Part shown: in pieces, positions 2,809 through 56,766 of the stretch
Layout: every line of letters begins with the position of its first letter
Position numbering within the stretch: position 1 is the first letter of the stretch
Assembly (NCBI GenBank): GCA_024636955.1
Contig: JAGXGB010000057.1
Location: forward strand, 1 to 64,000
Length of the DNA: 64,000 nt
Origin: Bacteroidales bacterium
GTDB taxonomy: Bacteria > Bacteroidota > Bacteroidia > Bacteroidales > Lentimicrobiaceae
Reading direction: 5' to 3'
Position numbers and translations under genes: made by a program
The notes under the pieces: model-generated
Told to the model about the DNA's origin: nothing
What the model saw: only the letters and a program-made list of their open reading frames with translations
The model's database searches: none

Positions 2809-4218
2809 TTATATTCGGCTCATGTCAATCTTAAAGGCCACTCGTTGTTCCTGGGCATTACAATGTAACACACATTGGTCGCAAATGGATAACTCTCCGC
2901 GTAACCTTTTTTTCACCAGATCATCAATACGGTTACGTAATTGCTCAATTGATATCTTGTTAACTATCTCAGCTGCAAAAGCATACATTAACAGCATACG
3001 TGCGTTTTCGTATGAAATACCGCGTGAGCGCAGGTAAAACATGGCCTGTTCATCAAGTTGGCCGATGGTTGCACCGTGACTGCATTTTACGTCGTCAGCA
3101 TAGATTTCAAGGAATGGTTTGGTATCAATGACTGCTTTGTCAGATATAAGTATATTCTTGTTGTTCTGGTATGCATTGGTTCTTTGGGCATCTTTACGAA
3201 CGAGGATATGTCCGTTGAAAACACCACTGGCATGATCATCAAGTATACCCTTAAACTGCTCATTACTGGTGCAATCAGGTGAAGCATGGTCAACAAATAT
3301 CTGGTTATCTATGTGCTGATTCCGATCCATGAGGTACAAACCAAGCAGATCAGCATGTGAACCACTACCTGCAAGAGTTGCGTATGATTCATTGCGTATG
3401 AATCCACCGTTAAGGCTTATGCCGTTACTTGAGAGGTTCGCACTTCGTTCAAGGTGAAACCAACTGCTGTTAATCAGCGTTGAGCGGTCGTTTTTGTTCT
3501 GAAGTTTGTAATGATCCAAATGAGCATTATCAGCCAAATAGAATTCCGATACCGTATTAATGAAGCTTCTGTGGTCATCAATAGAGTCATCGCACTGCAC
3601 CAAGGTGAGTTTACTGTTCTTGCCGAGTATTACAAGGTTGCGAAGCTGTATCATTGAATCTTCATTCATGTTGATCACGCTCACCATTTGTAGAGGTTTC
3701 TCTGCAACTACATTGTCAGGGACATATATGAACACGCCATCCATTGCCATTGCAGTATTGAGTGCACTTAGTCCATGAATTTTATGATCAGCGTACATTG
3801 CATAGTGCTTCTCAATTAATTCAGGGAAAGCTTCGAATGCGGCTCTGAGGCTACCAACCACCATTCCATTGGCTAAAGTGGTGAGCATTTTTCCACCGTT
3901 CATGTACCATCCGTTAAGAACAGTAACTGATTGGGTATCAAAGCCGGGTACTTCACACTTAAACAATTCATCCACATTAACATTCTGAGGCTGTGGTGTT
4001 GCGGAAAATGAATACGACCGTTCAAGCACCTTGCTCAGATCAGTATTCCTCCACTTTTCCTGTTTAATATCAGGAAAGCCGAGCTCACTGAATGTTGCAA
4101 TAGCTTGCTGACGAATATCCGCAATACGGGGGCTGTCAACCTTGCCGATGAATTGCATGTTATCGTGAAAGTGCTGTATTAAAGCTTCTTTTATGTTTAT
4201 AACTGAAATTTCTTCCAT
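2809..4218 (-). CDS. sufD: SufD, Fe-S scaffold complex subunit
   Basis: SufD is the SufB paralogue in the SufBC2D scaffold. It carries the family's beta-helical core and the C-terminal SufBD block: KCSHGATIGQLDEQAMFYLR around residue 375-395, followed by LRSRGISYENARMLLMYAF. The N-terminal helical region includes the typical QEKWRNTDLS. The length is 469 residues. It starts 18 bases after sufC, consistent with one transcript. Confidence 0.95.
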   Translation of the reverse strand: MEEISVINIKEALIQHFHDNMQFIGKVDSPRIADIRQQAIATFSELGFPDIKQEKWRNTDLSKVLERSYSFSATPQPQNVNVDELFKCEVPGFDTQSVTVLNGWYMNGGKMLTTLANGMVVGSLRAAFEAFPELIEKHYAMYADHKIHGLSALNTAMAMDGVFIYVPDNVVAEKPLQMVSVINMNEDSMIQLRNLVILGKNSKLTLVQCDDSIDDHRSFINTVSEFYLADNAHLDHYKLQNKNDRSTLINSSWFHLERSANLSSNGISLNGGFIRNESYATLAGSGSHADLLGLYLMDRNQHIDNQIFVDHASPDCTSNEQFKGILDDHASGVFNGHILVRKDAQRTNAYQNNKNILISDKAVIDTKPFLEIYADDVKCSHGATIGQLDEQAMFYLRSRGISYENARMLLMYAFAAEIVNKISIEQLRNRIDDLVKKRLRGELSICDQCVLHCNAQEQRVAFKIDMSRI

Positions 4219-50377: not shown

Positions 50378-50441
50378 CAAGTTTTTAAAAAAAGATTTGT
50401 TTAGCGTTTAGGGTTTAGAGTTTAGTCTCCATAGTAGCGAC

Positions 50442-50477
50442 CGGTCCCCGAGCCCCTCGATAAAAACTCGGGGACCG
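50442..50477. repeat. 11-bp perfect inverted repeat CGGTCCCCGAG
   Basis: CGGTCCCCGAG (50442-50452) and CTCGGGGACCG (50467-50477) flank a 14-base loop. The right 25 bases (50453-50477) recur, inverted and identical, at 56742-56766. It shares its core with the ends of the larger repeat units that follow. Confidence 0.8.
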
Positions 50478-50512
50478 CCACGATAATTCTAGGTGGAGTC
50501 TCCCTAGTTGCG

Positions 50513-50606
50513 ACCGGTCCCCGAGTAAAGGTCGAGTGAAGGCTCATGCTGAGGTACGAAGAATGAGCCGGAATCGAGAACTGCATCGAGGGGTGGTTGG
50601 ATTAAG
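50513..50606 (-). repeat. Structured repeat, copy C (inverted orientation)
   Basis: Starting with ACCGGTCCCCGAGTAA and ending ATCGAGGGGTGGTTGGATTAAG (outer parts only), this 94-base stretch matches the reverse complement of copies A and B at both ends. Its own central hairpin is GGCTCAT/ATGAGCC (about 50541-50569) instead of the AGTATTGCCT stem, so the stem has changed while pairing is kept. Confidence 0.7.
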
Positions 50607-50670
50607 GGGAGAATTCCAGCTAAGAGGATTTTTCGATTTTGAGTATTCTTCGCAAATATGGTCTATTTCC

Positions 50671-50794
50671 CTTCACTGCTTAATCCAACCGCCCCTCGAT
50701 GCGCATCTCGATTTCAGTATTGCCTGGTGGGAATTCATCCATTTAGATGTTGTTCAAGGCAATACTTCCACTCGATGCTTACTCGGGGACCGGT
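50671..50794 (+). repeat. Structured repeat, copy A (124 bp)
   Basis: This copy aligns without gaps to copy B (51223-51346), most differences lying in the central loop. It contains an internal stem AGTATTGCCT (50716-50725) with AGGCAATACT (50757-50766), and ends ACTCGGGGACCGGT. Confidence 0.8.
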
Positions 50795-50845
50795 TCTCAT
50801 CTTTTTTAGGAATCGGGCGCCTCGTTGTGGTTATTCAAGTTGATG

Positions 50846-50863
50846 AGTATTCTCTCGGCGCAG
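50846..50863 (+). repeat. Left 18-bp inverted repeat of the GIY-YIG unit
   Basis: AGTATTCTCTCGGCGCAG at 50846-50863 is the exact reverse complement of 51199-51216. The pair encloses only the GIY-YIG gene. A partial copy, GAGTATTCT, also precedes repeat A at 50641-50649. Confidence 0.85.
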
Positions 50864-50873
50864 AGGTAAGAAT

Positions 50874-51158
50874 CTACAACTTTTGTTTTCGGGCCAAATA
50901 TTTCAAATCGGCAGTGTTGCCGGCTATAAGTGCTTCTTTTTTCTTCTTACTCCAGTTCTGCACCTGTTTTTCTCTTAAAAAGGCTTCCGCAATGGAACGA
51001 AATTCTTCATAATACACCAGTTTTACCGGAAGATGCTTTGAGGTAAAATTAGCACCCATTCCTGATTCGTGTTCTAACAGTCGTAATTCTAAATATTTAG
51101 TACTACCGGTATAATACTGCCCGTTGCTGCAGAGCAATAAATACATGTATGCTTTCAT
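50874..51158 (-). CDS. Single-domain GIY-YIG nuclease
   Basis: A 94-residue GIY-YIG endonuclease domain of the YhbQ-like small type: YMYLLLCSNGQYYTGSTKYLELRLLEHESG, with the Tyr pair and Arg, then HLPVKLVYYEEFRSIAEAFLREKQVQNWSKKKKEALI carrying the conserved Glu and the basic helix. (These two stretches are at about residues 4-33 and 42-78.) I start at MKAYMYLLL (51158); an ATG at 51179 adds seven residues. It is tightly enclosed by perfect 18-bp inverted repeats and flanked by copies of a structured repeat, suggesting a small mobile or repeat-linked unit. Confidence 0.88.
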   Translation of the reverse strand: MKAYMYLLLCSNGQYYTGSTKYLELRLLEHESGMGANFTSKHLPVKLVYYEEFRSIAEAFLREKQVQNWSKKKKEALIAGNTADLKYLARKQKL

Positions 51159-51198
51159 AAAGCTAGTTTTAAGAATCAAAGTTATGGAAAAACCATGA

Positions 51199-51216
51199 CT
51201 GCGCCGAGAGAATACT
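51199..51216 (-). repeat. Right 18-bp inverted repeat of the GIY-YIG unit
   Basis: CTGCGCCGAGAGAATACT is the exact reverse complement of 50846-50863. Only six bases separate it from repeat copy B. Confidence 0.85.
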
Positions 51217-51222
51217 ATTTTA

Positions 51223-51346
51223 CTTCACAGCTTAATCCCACTGCCCCTCGATGCGCATCTCGATTCCAGTATTGCCTGGTGTGAAACTTCTAATTTGGTG
51301 ATTGTTCAAGGCAATACTTGCACTCGATGCTTACTCGGGGACCGGT
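51223..51346 (+). repeat. Structured repeat, copy B (124 bp)
   Basis: Ungapped match to copy A, in the same orientation, with the internal AGTATTGCCT/AGGCAATACT stem preserved. The loop between the stem arms differs from copy A, as expected if structure rather than loop sequence is under selection. Confidence 0.8.
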
Positions 51347-51437
51347 CGCTACCATTTTTAAGATTCCAAAATGGCACTCTAAAATTTGGTAATATGAAAA
51401 AAAGTAATCAAATTTGCCTTTAGATTAATTACCATTG

Positions 51438-51533
51438 TAGTCGCACTTCGTTCGCATACCGTTCGTATATCGTTCGCATTTAAGCGTTAAAAATGCGAAC
51501 ACAATGCGAGTAAGATGCGACTAAAATGCGAAC
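51438..51533. repeat. Heptamer-rich nested palindrome
   Basis: TAGTCGCA (51438-51445) pairs with TGCGACTA (51516-51523), and inside it GTTCGCATTT (51472-51481) pairs with AAATGCGAAC (51491-51500). The region is made of many variants of TTCGCAT on the left and ATGCGAA/ATGCGAC on the right. It lies about 100 bases before the DUF6266 gene. The rest of 51347-51632 is A-rich with no other feature seen. Confidence 0.7.
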
Positions 51534-51632
51534 GGTGGAAAAATGAACACTCAACAGCAAATAAATAAATCAGCTGATAAAATAAGCATCTGAAAAAATA
51601 AACAACCAACAATTAAAAAACGTAAAACACAC

Positions 51633-52268
51633 ATGGCCAGACTCAGAAAAGGAATATTGACCGGCATTATAGGTCCACTTGCATATTCAAATTATAAAGG
51701 GAAGCAGGTTGTTAAAATGCGACCTAATCAGGATAAGGAGAAAAAGGAGCCAACAACTGCACAATTTGTGCAACGCAATAAAATGAGGGCTGTAAACGCT
51801 TTCGTAAAACCACTCAAACCAGTTATTGCTATTGGATTTCAGGATTCCGACAAACTATCGGCATACAATGAATGCGTATCAGAGCTACTGAGCATTGTTA
51901 CAATGAAGGATGAAGTAGTGCCGGTTATTGATTACGCTCAGGTTAAATTCTCTCGTGGCACACTACCTGCTCCTGAAATCGTTGCAATGGATGTTAACCC
52001 CGGTTCAATAATTATCACATGGAATAAGAGTACATCCAACCATGCCACCCGCAAAAACGATGAAGCTGTTGTAGTGCTACGTTCTGAAGCAGGTGCTTCA
52101 AAGATATTTGATTGCATAGGATTTCGCGCTGATGGTTCAGGATCTGTTGAAATTCCTGCGAATATTGAAGCACCATACCATGCCTGGATATTCTTTAGTA
52201 ATCCCAAAATGTACCCCTACGCGAGTAAAAAGAAAGTTTCAGATACGGTTTATTTGGGGGGTTTTTGA
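51633..52268 (+). CDS. DUF6266 family protein
   Basis: A 211-residue protein of a family restricted largely to Bacteroidota. It begins MARLRKGILTGIIGPLAYSNYKG with VKMRPNQ and TTAQFVQRNKM, the DUF6266 signature, and its C-terminal half is beta-rich (VVVLRSEAGASKIFDCIGFRA near 165-185). There is no signal peptide. Function is unknown. A heptamer-rich palindrome precedes it. Confidence 0.82.
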   Translation: MARLRKGILTGIIGPLAYSNYKGKQVVKMRPNQDKEKKEPTTAQFVQRNKMRAVNAFVKPLKPVIAIGFQDSDKLSAYNECVSELLSIVTMKDEVVPVIDYAQVKFSRGTLPAPEIVAMDVNPGSIIITWNKSTSNHATRKNDEAVVVLRSEAGASKIFDCIGFRADGSGSVEIPANIEAPYHAWIFFSNPKMYPYASKKKVSDTVYLGGF

Positions 52269-52332
52269 GGGGGGAGACATCCCATCCAAACATGAATTCT
52301 TTACAATTACGGAATTGGATTCCGAAATTGCA

Positions 52333-52340
52333 TAACTTTG
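52333..52340 (+). promoter_or_regulatory. -7 element almost on the ATPase start codon
   Basis: TAACTTTG at 52333-52340 is a full TAnnTTTG match and the ATG is at 52345. Transcription should begin at or next to the start codon, giving a leaderless message. Confidence 0.6.
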
Positions 52341-52344
52341 TAGT

Positions 52345-53490
52345 ATGATACCACGGACAGCAGAAATTGAATTGAAAAATCTGGCCGGTCAATTCAAAGC
52401 AGTTGCATTGAATGGTCCTCGTCAGTCGGGCAAAACTACACTTGTTAGGAAAGCATTCCCTAATAAAGCTTATGTCAGTCTGGAAAATCCTGATATAAGG
52501 AGTTATGCCCTCAATGATCCAAGGGGATTTCTTGCCAATTATCCCCAGGGCGCCATTTTTGATGAAGTGCAGCGTGCACCTGAATTGTTCTCCTACCTGC
52601 AGCAGGTACTGGATGAATCGCCTGAAAAAGGTGTTTTTATCCTGACAGGTTCCAATAATTTTCTATTACAGGAGAGTATTTCACAAAGTTTAGCCGGCAG
52701 AATTGCCTACCTTACACTACTTCCATTGTCACTTGCAGAAATTGGCGGATTGGAATCGGATATAAATCAAATGATTTTTAAAGGAGGATATCCTGTATTA
52801 TATGCCGAAAAGTCGGATCCGTCGAAATGGTTTCTGAATTACATCAGTACTTATGTGGAGAGGGATGTCAGGCAACTGAAAAATATTGTTGATTTAAGCA
52901 CTTTTGAGCGCTTTATACGCCTATGTGCCGGAAGAACAGGGCAATTGCTCAACATGAGCAGTCTGGCACTTGAAACTGGTGTGGATCAGAAGACCGTAGC
53001 TGCATGGTTGAGCGTACTGGAAACCAGTTTCATTCTGTTCAGGCTGCAACCGTACTATAAAAATTATAATAAACGTATGGTAAAAATGCCGAAGCTGTAT
53101 TTTTATGATACCGGATTAGCCTCTGCACTGCTTGGAATTGACAATGCTGCAATGCTTGAAATGCACCCTTTCAGGGGTAGTCTCTTTGAAAATTTTGTTG
53201 TGAACGAATTTTTGAAACAACGTCTTAACAGTGGTCTTTCCAATAATCTATTCTTTTGGAGAGACAGCACGGGTAATGAAATTGACCTGCTGATTGACCA
53301 GAAGCCTGATCTTTTACCAATTGAAATTAAATCAGGCAAAACAGTTACATCGGATTATTTTAAAGGGTTGAATTTCTGGAACAAGCTCACAGGAAACAAG
53401 GGCGGTAAGGTTGTATATGGCGGTGATATGCAACAAACTAGAAGCGACGGTATTTCAGTTGTGCCGTTGAAGGACCTAATTAGAGATTGA
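52345..53490 (+). CDS. AAA_14/DUF4143 ATPase
   Basis: This 381-residue protein has a P-loop (LNGPRQSGKTTL, 22-33), Walker B IFDEVQRAPEL, sensor LTGSNNFLL and the arm LAGRIAYLTLLPLSLAEI. The C-terminal DUF4143 domain contains FRGSLFENFVVNEFLKQR and a nuclease-like end, FWRDSTGNEIDLLI and PIEIKSGKTV, which follows the E-D-ExK pattern of PD-(D/E)XK folds. Such proteins occur in many copies in anaerobic Bacteroidota; their role is not established. It is flanked downstream by a RAYT relic. Confidence 0.9.
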   Translation: MIPRTAEIELKNLAGQFKAVALNGPRQSGKTTLVRKAFPNKAYVSLENPDIRSYALNDPRGFLANYPQGAIFDEVQRAPELFSYLQQVLDESPEKGVFILTGSNNFLLQESISQSLAGRIAYLTLLPLSLAEIGGLESDINQMIFKGGYPVLYAEKSDPSKWFLNYISTYVERDVRQLKNIVDLSTFERFIRLCAGRTGQLLNMSSLALETGVDQKTVAAWLSVLETSFILFRLQPYYKNYNKRMVKMPKLYFYDTGLASALLGIDNAAMLEMHPFRGSLFENFVVNEFLKQRLNSGLSNNLFFWRDSTGNEIDLLIDQKPDLLPIEIKSGKTVTSDYFKGLNFWNKLTGNKGGKVVYGGDMQQTRSDGISVVPLKDLIRD

Positions 53491-53500
53491 GAGACCATTG

Positions 53501-53567
53501 ATCGTAATGCCCAACCATTTTCATTGTATTGTTAAAAACGTTGGTAACGGGCCCGGTTGTCTGCCAC
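53501..53567 (+). pseudogene. Relic fragment of a RAYT transposase
   Basis: Bases 53501-53549 repeat, with a few changes, the stretch 53811-53859 inside the intact RAYT, encoding VMPNHFHCIV and KNVGN. It is followed by a decayed GGGCCCGG/GTCTGCC stretch like the REP hairpin. Only this piece remains, directly after the ATPase stop codon. Confidence 0.75.
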
Positions 53568-53582
53568 AATAATAATTAAAAT

Positions 53583-54320
53583 ATGAACAAATACGATCCC
53601 CAAAAACATCACCGCAGATCCATTCGCCTGAAAGGATTTGATTATTCGCAGGCCGGATTATATTTCATTACCATTTGCACACAGGATAGAGAATATTTTT
53701 TTGGCAAAATTGCGAATGGTGAAATGATATTGAATGATGCAGGGCATATGATTGAAAAATGGTATTACGAATTGGAAAACAAATATCCGGATATAAAATG
53801 CCATGAAATGATCGTGATGCCCAACCATTTTCATTGTATTGTTGAAAATGTCGGTAACGCCCCCGTTGAGGCCGACCCCACGGGTGCGGTAGGGGCAGAC
53901 CTACGTGTCTGCCCCATTAACAATATTGATAATCGCATTAACAATTTTAATAATGGTATTGAAAATTTTGATGCGGATATAACACCATTGCCATTGATGG
54001 GGGTAACACCGTTGTTGGAACAACCAACATTATTAATTGAACAACCGGAACAACCCACATTATTATCGCAATCACAACCAGTAGAGGGCGAACACGGAGG
54101 TTCGCCCCTACATCGGGTGGTTCAATGGTTTAAAACCATGTCGACCAACGAATATATACGGGGCGTTAAACAACTGGGTTGGGCAAAATTTAACGGTAAA
54201 TTATGGCAACGCAATTATTGGGAACACGTAATTCGTAATGAACCTGAATTTCATCGAATTTCAGATTACATCATCAATAATCCGAAAAAATGGAAAGGTG
54301 ATAAATTTTACAACAAATAA
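53583..54320 (+). CDS. REP-associated tyrosine transposase (RAYT, Y1_Tnp)
   Basis: The 245-residue protein opens with HRRSIRLKGFDYSQAGLYFITICTQ (residues 10-34), has the HUH-type metal motif MPNHFHCI (His82, His84) and the C-terminal WQRNYWEHVIRN with the likely catalytic Tyr212, followed by SDYIINNPKKW. This is the RAYT branch of IS200/IS605-type transposases, thought to spread REP hairpins. Residues of about 93-170 form an insertion relative to usual RAYTs (Pro/Thr/Gln/Leu-rich), encoded by DNA that itself contains two REP-like hairpins. The frame stays open, so it may be functional. Confidence 0.88.
   Translation: MNKYDPQKHHRRSIRLKGFDYSQAGLYFITICTQDREYFFGKIANGEMILNDAGHMIEKWYYELENKYPDIKCHEMIVMPNHFHCIVENVGNAPVEADPTGAVGADLRVCPINNIDNRINNFNNGIENFDADITPLPLMGVTPLLEQPTLLIEQPEQPTLLSQSQPVEGEHGGSPLHRVVQWFKTMSTNEYIRGVKQLGWAKFNGKLWQRNYWEHVIRNEPEFHRISDYIINNPKKWKGDKFYNK
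53892..53915. repeat. REP-like hairpin inside the RAYT frame (1)
   Basis: GGGGCAGAC and GTCTGCCCC form a nine-base stem with a six-base loop CTACGT. It is typical of REP palindromes linked to RAYT genes and lies within the coding insertion. Confidence 0.82.
54081..54111. repeat. REP-like hairpin inside the RAYT frame (2)
   Basis: GGGCGAAC (54086-54093) pairs with GTTCGCCC (54100-54107), and GTAG/CTAC extends the stem past a one-base bulge. The sequence differs from the first hairpin, as if two REP subtypes were captured. Confidence 0.82.
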
Positions 54321-54401
54321 ATATCCCTAAAAGGAATGCTGTTAAATTTCACAATAATCCCCCTGATTAGAATGGCGATAATTTTAATCCTATAAAAGGC
54401 A

Positions 54402-56741: not shown

Positions 56742-56766
56742 CGGTCCCCGAGTTTTTATCGAGGGG
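56742..56766 (-). repeat. Dispersed copy of the CGGTCCCCGAG repeat
   Basis: These 25 bases are the exact reverse complement of 50453-50477. They lie in a stretch of TTAGCC-type units (about 56728-56800) between two genes, showing that the repeat also travels away from the GIY-YIG unit. Confidence 0.8.

Follow-up and report, generated by a model that had tools for sequence, protein, structure and literature searches.

A small GIY-YIG nuclease gene and the hairpin repeats around it as a probable REP-RAYT-like system

Free-standing GIY-YIG homing endonucleases of the SegA/MobE kind are self-contained nuclease genes, inserted at otherwise empty intergenic sites and directed at a unique allelic target. 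In REP-RAYT systems (REPtrons: TnpA-REP, GTAG-tagged REPs, and REPINs), the small nuclease gene encodes an HUH/Y1 enzyme and is bracketed by hairpin repeats with a GT[AG]G tetranucleotide at the foot. These hairpins are dispersed as inverted pairs, match their enzyme specifically, and outlive it; reportedly, a REPtron does not transpose as a whole unit (PMC6006769). The CGTC-tagged REPs, including dRS3 of Neisseria and RPE-4/6 of Rickettsia, "apparently lack a dedicated transposase" according to the survey of Di Nocera 2013 (PMC3733652).

The locus described here lies in a 64-kb stretch of DNA, the window, and shares the layout of a REPtron, with a gene flanked by dispersed hairpins that often form inverted pairs. 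In contrast to REPtrons, the bracketed gene encodes a GIY-YIG nuclease, the hairpin foot is GGT/GTCA-like with GAG...CGA or CGTC-type features instead of GTAG, the RAYT genes of nuclease-bearing genomes have no such hairpins, and the nuclease unit inserts as a block. In comparison to the SegA/MobE kind, the apparent target is a short repeated hairpin, and only here are there multicopy brackets and a protein tail that follows the hairpin loop. We consider, with a probability of about 0.7, that the nuclease and the surrounding repeats form one REP-RAYT-like system in which a GIY-YIG enzyme replaces the HUH transposase, a reading built on bracketing, dispersal, tail-loop match, and insertion as a unit, as they emerge from sequence comparison. 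The original prediction had drawn the RAYT-REP analogy from the window, and it came through most of the tests named with it: homologous genes are mostly flanked and empty sites occur in relatives. In addition, RAYT genes of these genomes are free of the hairpins, and loop type agrees with the tail. The features of the locus are listed in Table 1.

Table 1. Features of the nuclease locus and its surroundings in the window
Feature	Position	Strand	Remarks
Short double REP	50440..50477	.	CGGTCCCCGAG overlapping inverted CCCC-TCG-ATAAAAA-CTC-GGGG-ACCG (GAG-TTTTTAT-CGA hairpin)
Long hairpin element C	50511..50612	+	Inverted relative to A and B; inner stem GGCTCAT/ATGAGCC, same GAG/CGA architecture
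Long hairpin element A	50674..50796	-	Tail GGTTGGATTAAG
18-bp perfect inverted repeat, arm 1	50846..50863	+	Gene-downstream side
GIY-YIG nuclease gene, UPF0213-like	50874..51158	-	94 aa; tail LARKQKL (tail class IV)
18-bp perfect inverted repeat, arm 2	51199..51216	-	Gene-upstream side
Long hairpin element B	51226..51348	-	Direct repeat of A on the opposite side of the gene
Variable island, ~4 kb	50397..54401	.	Nuclease/REP unit and three other genes, between rplU (50302) and eamA-type transporter (54402)
RAYT-like Y1 transposase	53583..54320		245 aa; 2.4 kb from the nuclease locus
Solo short REP CCCCGAGTTTTTATCGAGGGG	56746..56766	+	Further copies on contigs C30 and C71

The predicted 94-residue nuclease was confirmed by a profile match to PF01541 (E=2.8e-15, 56.8 bits versus a cut-off of 22.6) and belongs, by this match and its conserved catalytic residues, to the UPF0213/URI-like GIY-YIG superfamily. 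Residues Y17, G19, R27, H31, and E64 were invariant in the 39 sequences compared. The profile also matched PDB 1zg2 (E=3.8e-21), and the AF2 model reached a pLDDT of 87, with the tail modeled at lower confidence as a C-terminal helix (residues 82-93). UPF0213 proteins (PDB 1zg2 and 1ywl, B. subtilis YazA, and E. coli YhbQ) have the domain in common with it; those of Bacillus and Listeria, unlike the window nuclease, lie in housekeeping clusters, lack the tail motifs, and have no repeats beside the gene. No NCBIfam model matched any of five nucleases tested, leaving the subgroup without an NCBIfam name, and databank names are generic ("GIY-YIG nuclease family protein", "hypothetical protein", and "excinuclease ABC subunit C"). 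Since the family nevertheless occurred in 133 of 295 Bacteroidia genomes of an even draw, the system is both common and overlooked. Carriage by phages or plasmids was rejected because all matches in both collections stayed below 60% identity; small nucleases on plasmid records H66, H67, and H69 are misleadingly labeled 'excinuclease ABC subunit C'. A second small GIY-YIG gene of the same genome (L017, C1:13392 region) lies near a direct repeat, TGCTGGTGGGGCAGCYTACTCGATT, at about 1328-1352 and 3086-3112, without GA hairpins.

The exact 18-bp inverted repeats reported to enclose the gene are present; no close inverted repeat in the window is longer, and the maximum in 100 shuffled windows was 17 bp. 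The genome-wide search proposed for this repeat yielded no further copy at the sensitivity used, and it has no established counterpart elsewhere. Elements A and B, described as matching without gaps, did so at 88% over 50663-50794 and 51215-51346 (both on the minus strand). Element A reads GGTCCCC-GAG-TAAG-CAT-CGAG-TGGA-(AGTATTGCC...GGCAATACT)-GAAAT-CGAG-ATG-CGCAT-CGA-GGGG, followed by the tail. Element C keeps the ends GGTCCCCGAG...CGAGGGG...GGTTGGATTAAG on the plus strand, and in its inner stem GGCTCAT/ATGAGCC replaces AGTATTGCC/GGCAATACT of A and B; as had been claimed, the two stems differ, yet both pair. Read on the proper strand, all three elements follow the plan GGTCCCC-GAG...CGA-GGGG with a second GAG...CGA step nested inside. 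The dispersed short unit reads CCCC-GAG-TTTTTAT-CGA-GGGG. The 5'-GAG/CGA-3' step places tandem G.A mismatches between two stems and is a stable motif. The three long elements and the short palindrome are thus built alike, as stem-GAG-...-CGA-stem, and the long elements contain this plan nested two or three times.

In DNA folding, A (z = -3.5) and B (z = -2.3) scored better than their shuffles, and C alone did not (z = -1.1), probably because folding parameters give no reward for tandem G.A mismatches; energy folding was therefore unhelpful as proof of structure for C. The long (124-bp) element, for which a genome-wide search had also been proposed, occurred in this genome only at the window locus. 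The short palindrome CGGTCCCCGAG proved to be dispersed, with 10 genomic sites at no more than one mismatch, 6 of them away from the locus, compared to 1 for the reversed control. No window element matched Rfam at the gathering score, and a known RNA family was rejected, sub-threshold plant miRNA matches around C and A being long-hairpin artefacts. A tRNA-linked insertion was likewise rejected, as the 64-kb window holds no tRNA gene. A periodic palindromic repeat of 11 bp (TCGTTCGCATA-like units, GTTCGCATTTAAGCG...) adjoins the locus at 51440-51535 and recurs on contig C71 (L012, 5370-5450).

The arrangement in the window is one case of a widespread pattern found in hundreds of other bacteria. 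Hairpins of the form S(4 bp)-GAG-loop-CGA-S', with the tandem G.A mismatch, were scored at 80 homologous loci from GTDB genomes, comprising 69 from Bacteroidota and neighbors (mostly Bacteroidota) and 11 from other phyla (mostly Firmicutes). At the 69 loci, their density fell with distance from the gene, from 5.4/kb in the first 250 bp to 0.82/kb between 250 and 500 bp and 0.05-0.06/kb between 2 and 4 kb; six control cores gave 0-0.06/kb in the same comparison. The 11 loci from other phyla had almost no such hairpins. The nearest upstream hairpin was mostly on the plus strand (96 versus 28) and the nearest downstream one mostly on the minus strand (106 versus 34). Stems covary: among six-nucleotide-loop cores near the genes, 222 of 285 had perfect stems of at least 4 bp, in 31 different sequences. 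Direct repeats (median 87 bp, 89% identity) flanked 108 of 189 nuclease genes and none of 15 UvrC-type GIY-YIG control genes; GA hairpins are likewise absent from UvrC-type GIY-YIG genes.

Homologous nuclease genes were flanked in most cases. Among close homologs, hairpins stood at 26 of the 29 best loci from the even Bacteroidia draw; of 40 loci from more distant Bacteroidia relatives, about half lacked short GA hairpins, several of these carrying the long form. Nuclease tandems 0.8-1.1 kb apart (G731:C1 2382415/2383257, G471:C18 37979/38887, and G339:C7 77371/78494) suggest duplication through the flanking repeats. The reading frame often continues through the hairpins 3' of the gene (L053, L041, L079, and others), which gives the protein a tail of repeated peptides, e.g., FDSAQ and VEPVE.

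The same hairpins are scattered through the genomes, often as inverted pairs. By raw counts that ignore kinship, the median was 17 hairpins per genome with the nuclease and 2 without it, and at least 10 hairpins were found in 88 of 133 nuclease-bearing genomes versus 26 of 162 others, again with kinship ignored. This is the opposite of what would be expected if the nuclease were a host enzyme for genome hygiene, with an SbcCD-like role in cutting or removing hairpin DNA, and the flanking hairpins were its off-switch or leftovers. Such a role would agree with the housekeeping clusters without repeats in which the UPF0213 relatives of Bacillus and Listeria lie, and the ancestral role may indeed have been structure-specific repair. 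Travel as a unit with the repeats and the matching of one loop class per gene copy are not expected of a hygiene enzyme, and this explanation is very unlikely.

Three genomes (G084, G107, and G114) were rich in hairpins and lacked the small nuclease, their GIY-YIG genes being long and UvrC-like or similar; in a fourth (G125), a nuclease gene containing a stop still lay between hairpins. In G084 and G125, the two genomes with listed sites, the hairpins mostly formed inverted pairs about 45-70 bp apart. The state of G084, G107, and G114 fits persistence of the repeats after loss of the enzyme, as seen for REPINs where E. coli strains have no RAYT (PMC8049555), but it limits the claim. Repeats with no link to the nuclease had been named in advance as evidence against the analogy, and these few genomes partly bear that out.

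The RAYT-like gene in the window put to the test the explanation that another enzyme, a RAYT or an IS200-type transposase, moves the repeats and that the nuclease gene is hitch-hiking cargo landed among them. Its proximity to the nuclease locus and the presence of Y1 transposases in 41 of 49 nuclease-bearing genomes would suit that explanation. However, none of 50 Y1 transposase genes from nuclease-bearing genomes had GA hairpins within 600 bp, and the RAYT as mover of these hairpins was rejected. The nuclease-hairpin pair also occurred in 8 of the 49 genomes with no Y1 transposase found, and a match of tail and loop is not expected of cargo. Hitch-hiking is largely refuted and very unlikely. 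In Bacteroidetes, RAYT subclass 2.6 was described by a 2018 HUH survey as having "atypical secondary structures" (PMC6006769); the RAYTs examined here had no GA hairpins. Within the RAYT-like coding region of the window, near 53886, there is an apparent GTAG-type palindrome, GGTAGGGGCAGACCTACGTGTCTGCCCC, as described for subclass 2.4.

Empty sites, expected in relatives if the unit is mobile, were found. In Azospirillum lipoferum 4B, a hairpin pair, the nuclease gene, and a second hairpin pair lie between sufB and sufC, where A. oryzae, A. ramasamyi, and A. sp. B510 (94-95% identity) have a short spacer and no insert. The insertion edges are strongly diverged in this comparison and show no readable target-site duplication of the kind that marks an insertion sequence or transposon. 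As judged from these alignments, the nuclease and its brackets were inserted as a unit at a site empty in relatives. Around the window locus, rplU adjoins eamA without the island in 11 of 15 relatives from the window's own genus. A differing region in Shinella was set aside as a further empty site, its repeats and gene order having diverged too far for the junction to be read.

The nucleases have a conserved catalytic core and a C-terminus that is one of a few tails, and the loop type follows the tail. Class I tails, CxNxS/T (CxN.[ST]), pair with GAG-CGNAGY-CGA (six-nucleotide loop), class II (YRD) with GAG-GNNCT-CGA, class III, SKN (S[KR][NS]), with GAG-CYTGY-CGA, and class IV, KKxF ([AS]KKxF), with long hairpins TG-[stem]-YGTAT; the window protein, with LARKQKL and long hairpins, falls into class IV. 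Agreement in the discovery set was 88 of 92 (10,000 label permutations: mean 36.6, maximum 52). The rule derived from this set was written down beforehand and then applied to new loci, where it held in 33 of 35 (permuted mean 13.3, maximum 23), i.e., 18/18 in class I, 7/7 in class II, and 8/10 in class III. Class IV was less clean, with 13 of 19 new loci as predicted, and three KRKFPN tails of this class occur with the class II loop.

Shared DNA does not explain the match, since upstream hairpins alone, separated from the tail by the nuclease core, agreed in 90 of 98 cases (permuted maximum 57) and the tail motif overlapped a hairpin in 0 of 114. The catalytic-domain tree, with 45 changes of tail and 40 of loop, has low resolution (78 columns), so the number of independent switches is uncertain. 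In Kordia, two loci (L085 and L086) share the catalytic domain but differ in tail and loop. Joint switching is as expected if the tail recognizes the loop. In a few proteobacterial loci, the tails also seem to follow the loop: SHYLHGL with CTCGT (L384, L392), ..LW/ELGVW with CTTGA (L389, L395-L397), and DLW/DLF..I with GNAG (L393, L394, L398, L399).

Recognition of the hairpin as RNA would yield the same code. The strongest rival explanation is autoregulation: the protein (or its tail) would bind the hairpin as RNA within the nuclease transcript and thereby regulate expression of its own gene, and the scattered copies would be a by-product of ordinary recombination. The hairpins do lie within tens of bases of the start and stop codons. 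Yet they are also found, mostly in inverted pairs, at numerous sites distant from the gene, they stand on both sides of the gene in both orientations, the unit inserts elsewhere with its brackets, and no Rfam family was matched. Autoregulation is unlikely on balance, and the REP-RAYT-like reading is preferred.

Plasmid records led to relatives in Proteobacteria, including Alphaproteobacteria, and in cyanobacteria. Of 14 proteobacterial loci with a sister nuclease, 12 were bracketed on both sides. The bracketing hairpins are CGTC, TGTC, or CCTC tagged, have AT-first stems and mostly CCA tails, and were found in Azospirillum, Shinella, Rhizobium, Neorhizobium, Sinorhizobium, Aeromonas, and Neisseria; similar CGTC inverted repeats accompany the sister nuclease in Sphingobium and Novosphingobium, and tagged hairpins stand on one side in Rhizobium K1/93 and Photobacterium. 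Neisseria alone is weak evidence, as dRS3 is very dense there (PMC3898611). The published description of CGTC-tagged REPs (PMC3733652) fits the repeats at the sister nuclease in Azospirillum, Shinella, Rhizobium, Neorhizobium, Aeromonas, Photobacterium, and Neisseria. Loci such as L389, L393, and L395-L399 show the CGTC/TGTC/CCTC tag, an 8-9 bp stem starting with AT, a 4-5 nt loop, and the CCA tail. The repeats of Bacteroidota and the window resemble CGTC REPs in architecture and a partial GTC foot and differ in the GAG/CGA mismatch and the variable stem. A Sphingomonas gene of the first type has a GGCTGAGCGAAGTCGAAGCC pair upstream, and copies of TGTC-ATTCT-GAG-TGAAA-CGA-AGAAT stand on either side of a Planktothrix gene; relatives in B. 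subtilis (yazA), Listeria, and Legionella had no such flanking hairpins. Whereas the survey saw no transposase gene associated with CGTC REPs (PMC3733652), a GIY-YIG partner is proposed here. It is fairly probable that a second REP superfamily, which spans phyla and includes the CGTC REPs, has its dedicated enzymes in these nucleases, with the choice of hairpin made through a short, exchangeable, loop-reading C-terminal tail.

Hairpin cutting and mobility driven by the nuclease are inferred as follows. The nuclease would bind the hairpin in single-stranded or cruciform DNA, the tail would read the loop with the tandem G.A step as the common mark, and a nick would be placed at or near the hairpin foot. 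A further copy of the repeat may then serve as template for repair of the break, or recombination may occur between the flanking direct repeats, and REP doublets would be copied to new intergenic sites, occasionally with the nuclease gene and its brackets. The working mode may be like that of REP-RAYT or that of a free-standing homing nuclease targeting a hairpin repeat, the HUH tyrosine transposase being replaced by a hydrolytic GIY-YIG enzyme. Because enzyme superfamily and repeats differ and the enzyme is not of the HUH/Y1 type, the system was assigned to a kind separate from the REPtron; the conservative alternative is a variant within the REPtron kind, the layout being that of a REPtron. 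Searches of an open-access library, which lacks preprints and most subscription papers, gave no paper joining GIY-YIG with REPs, so priority is not certain.

The nuclease is a candidate for the missing enzyme of a large class of bacterial repeats whose mover has been unknown so far. Through its link to the repeats, the question of the mover can be addressed experimentally with short oligonucleotides and a protein of 94 residues. Rarely do so few amino acids, about five in the tail-loop code, appear to determine which DNA hairpin is accepted, and many natural tail swaps already exist.
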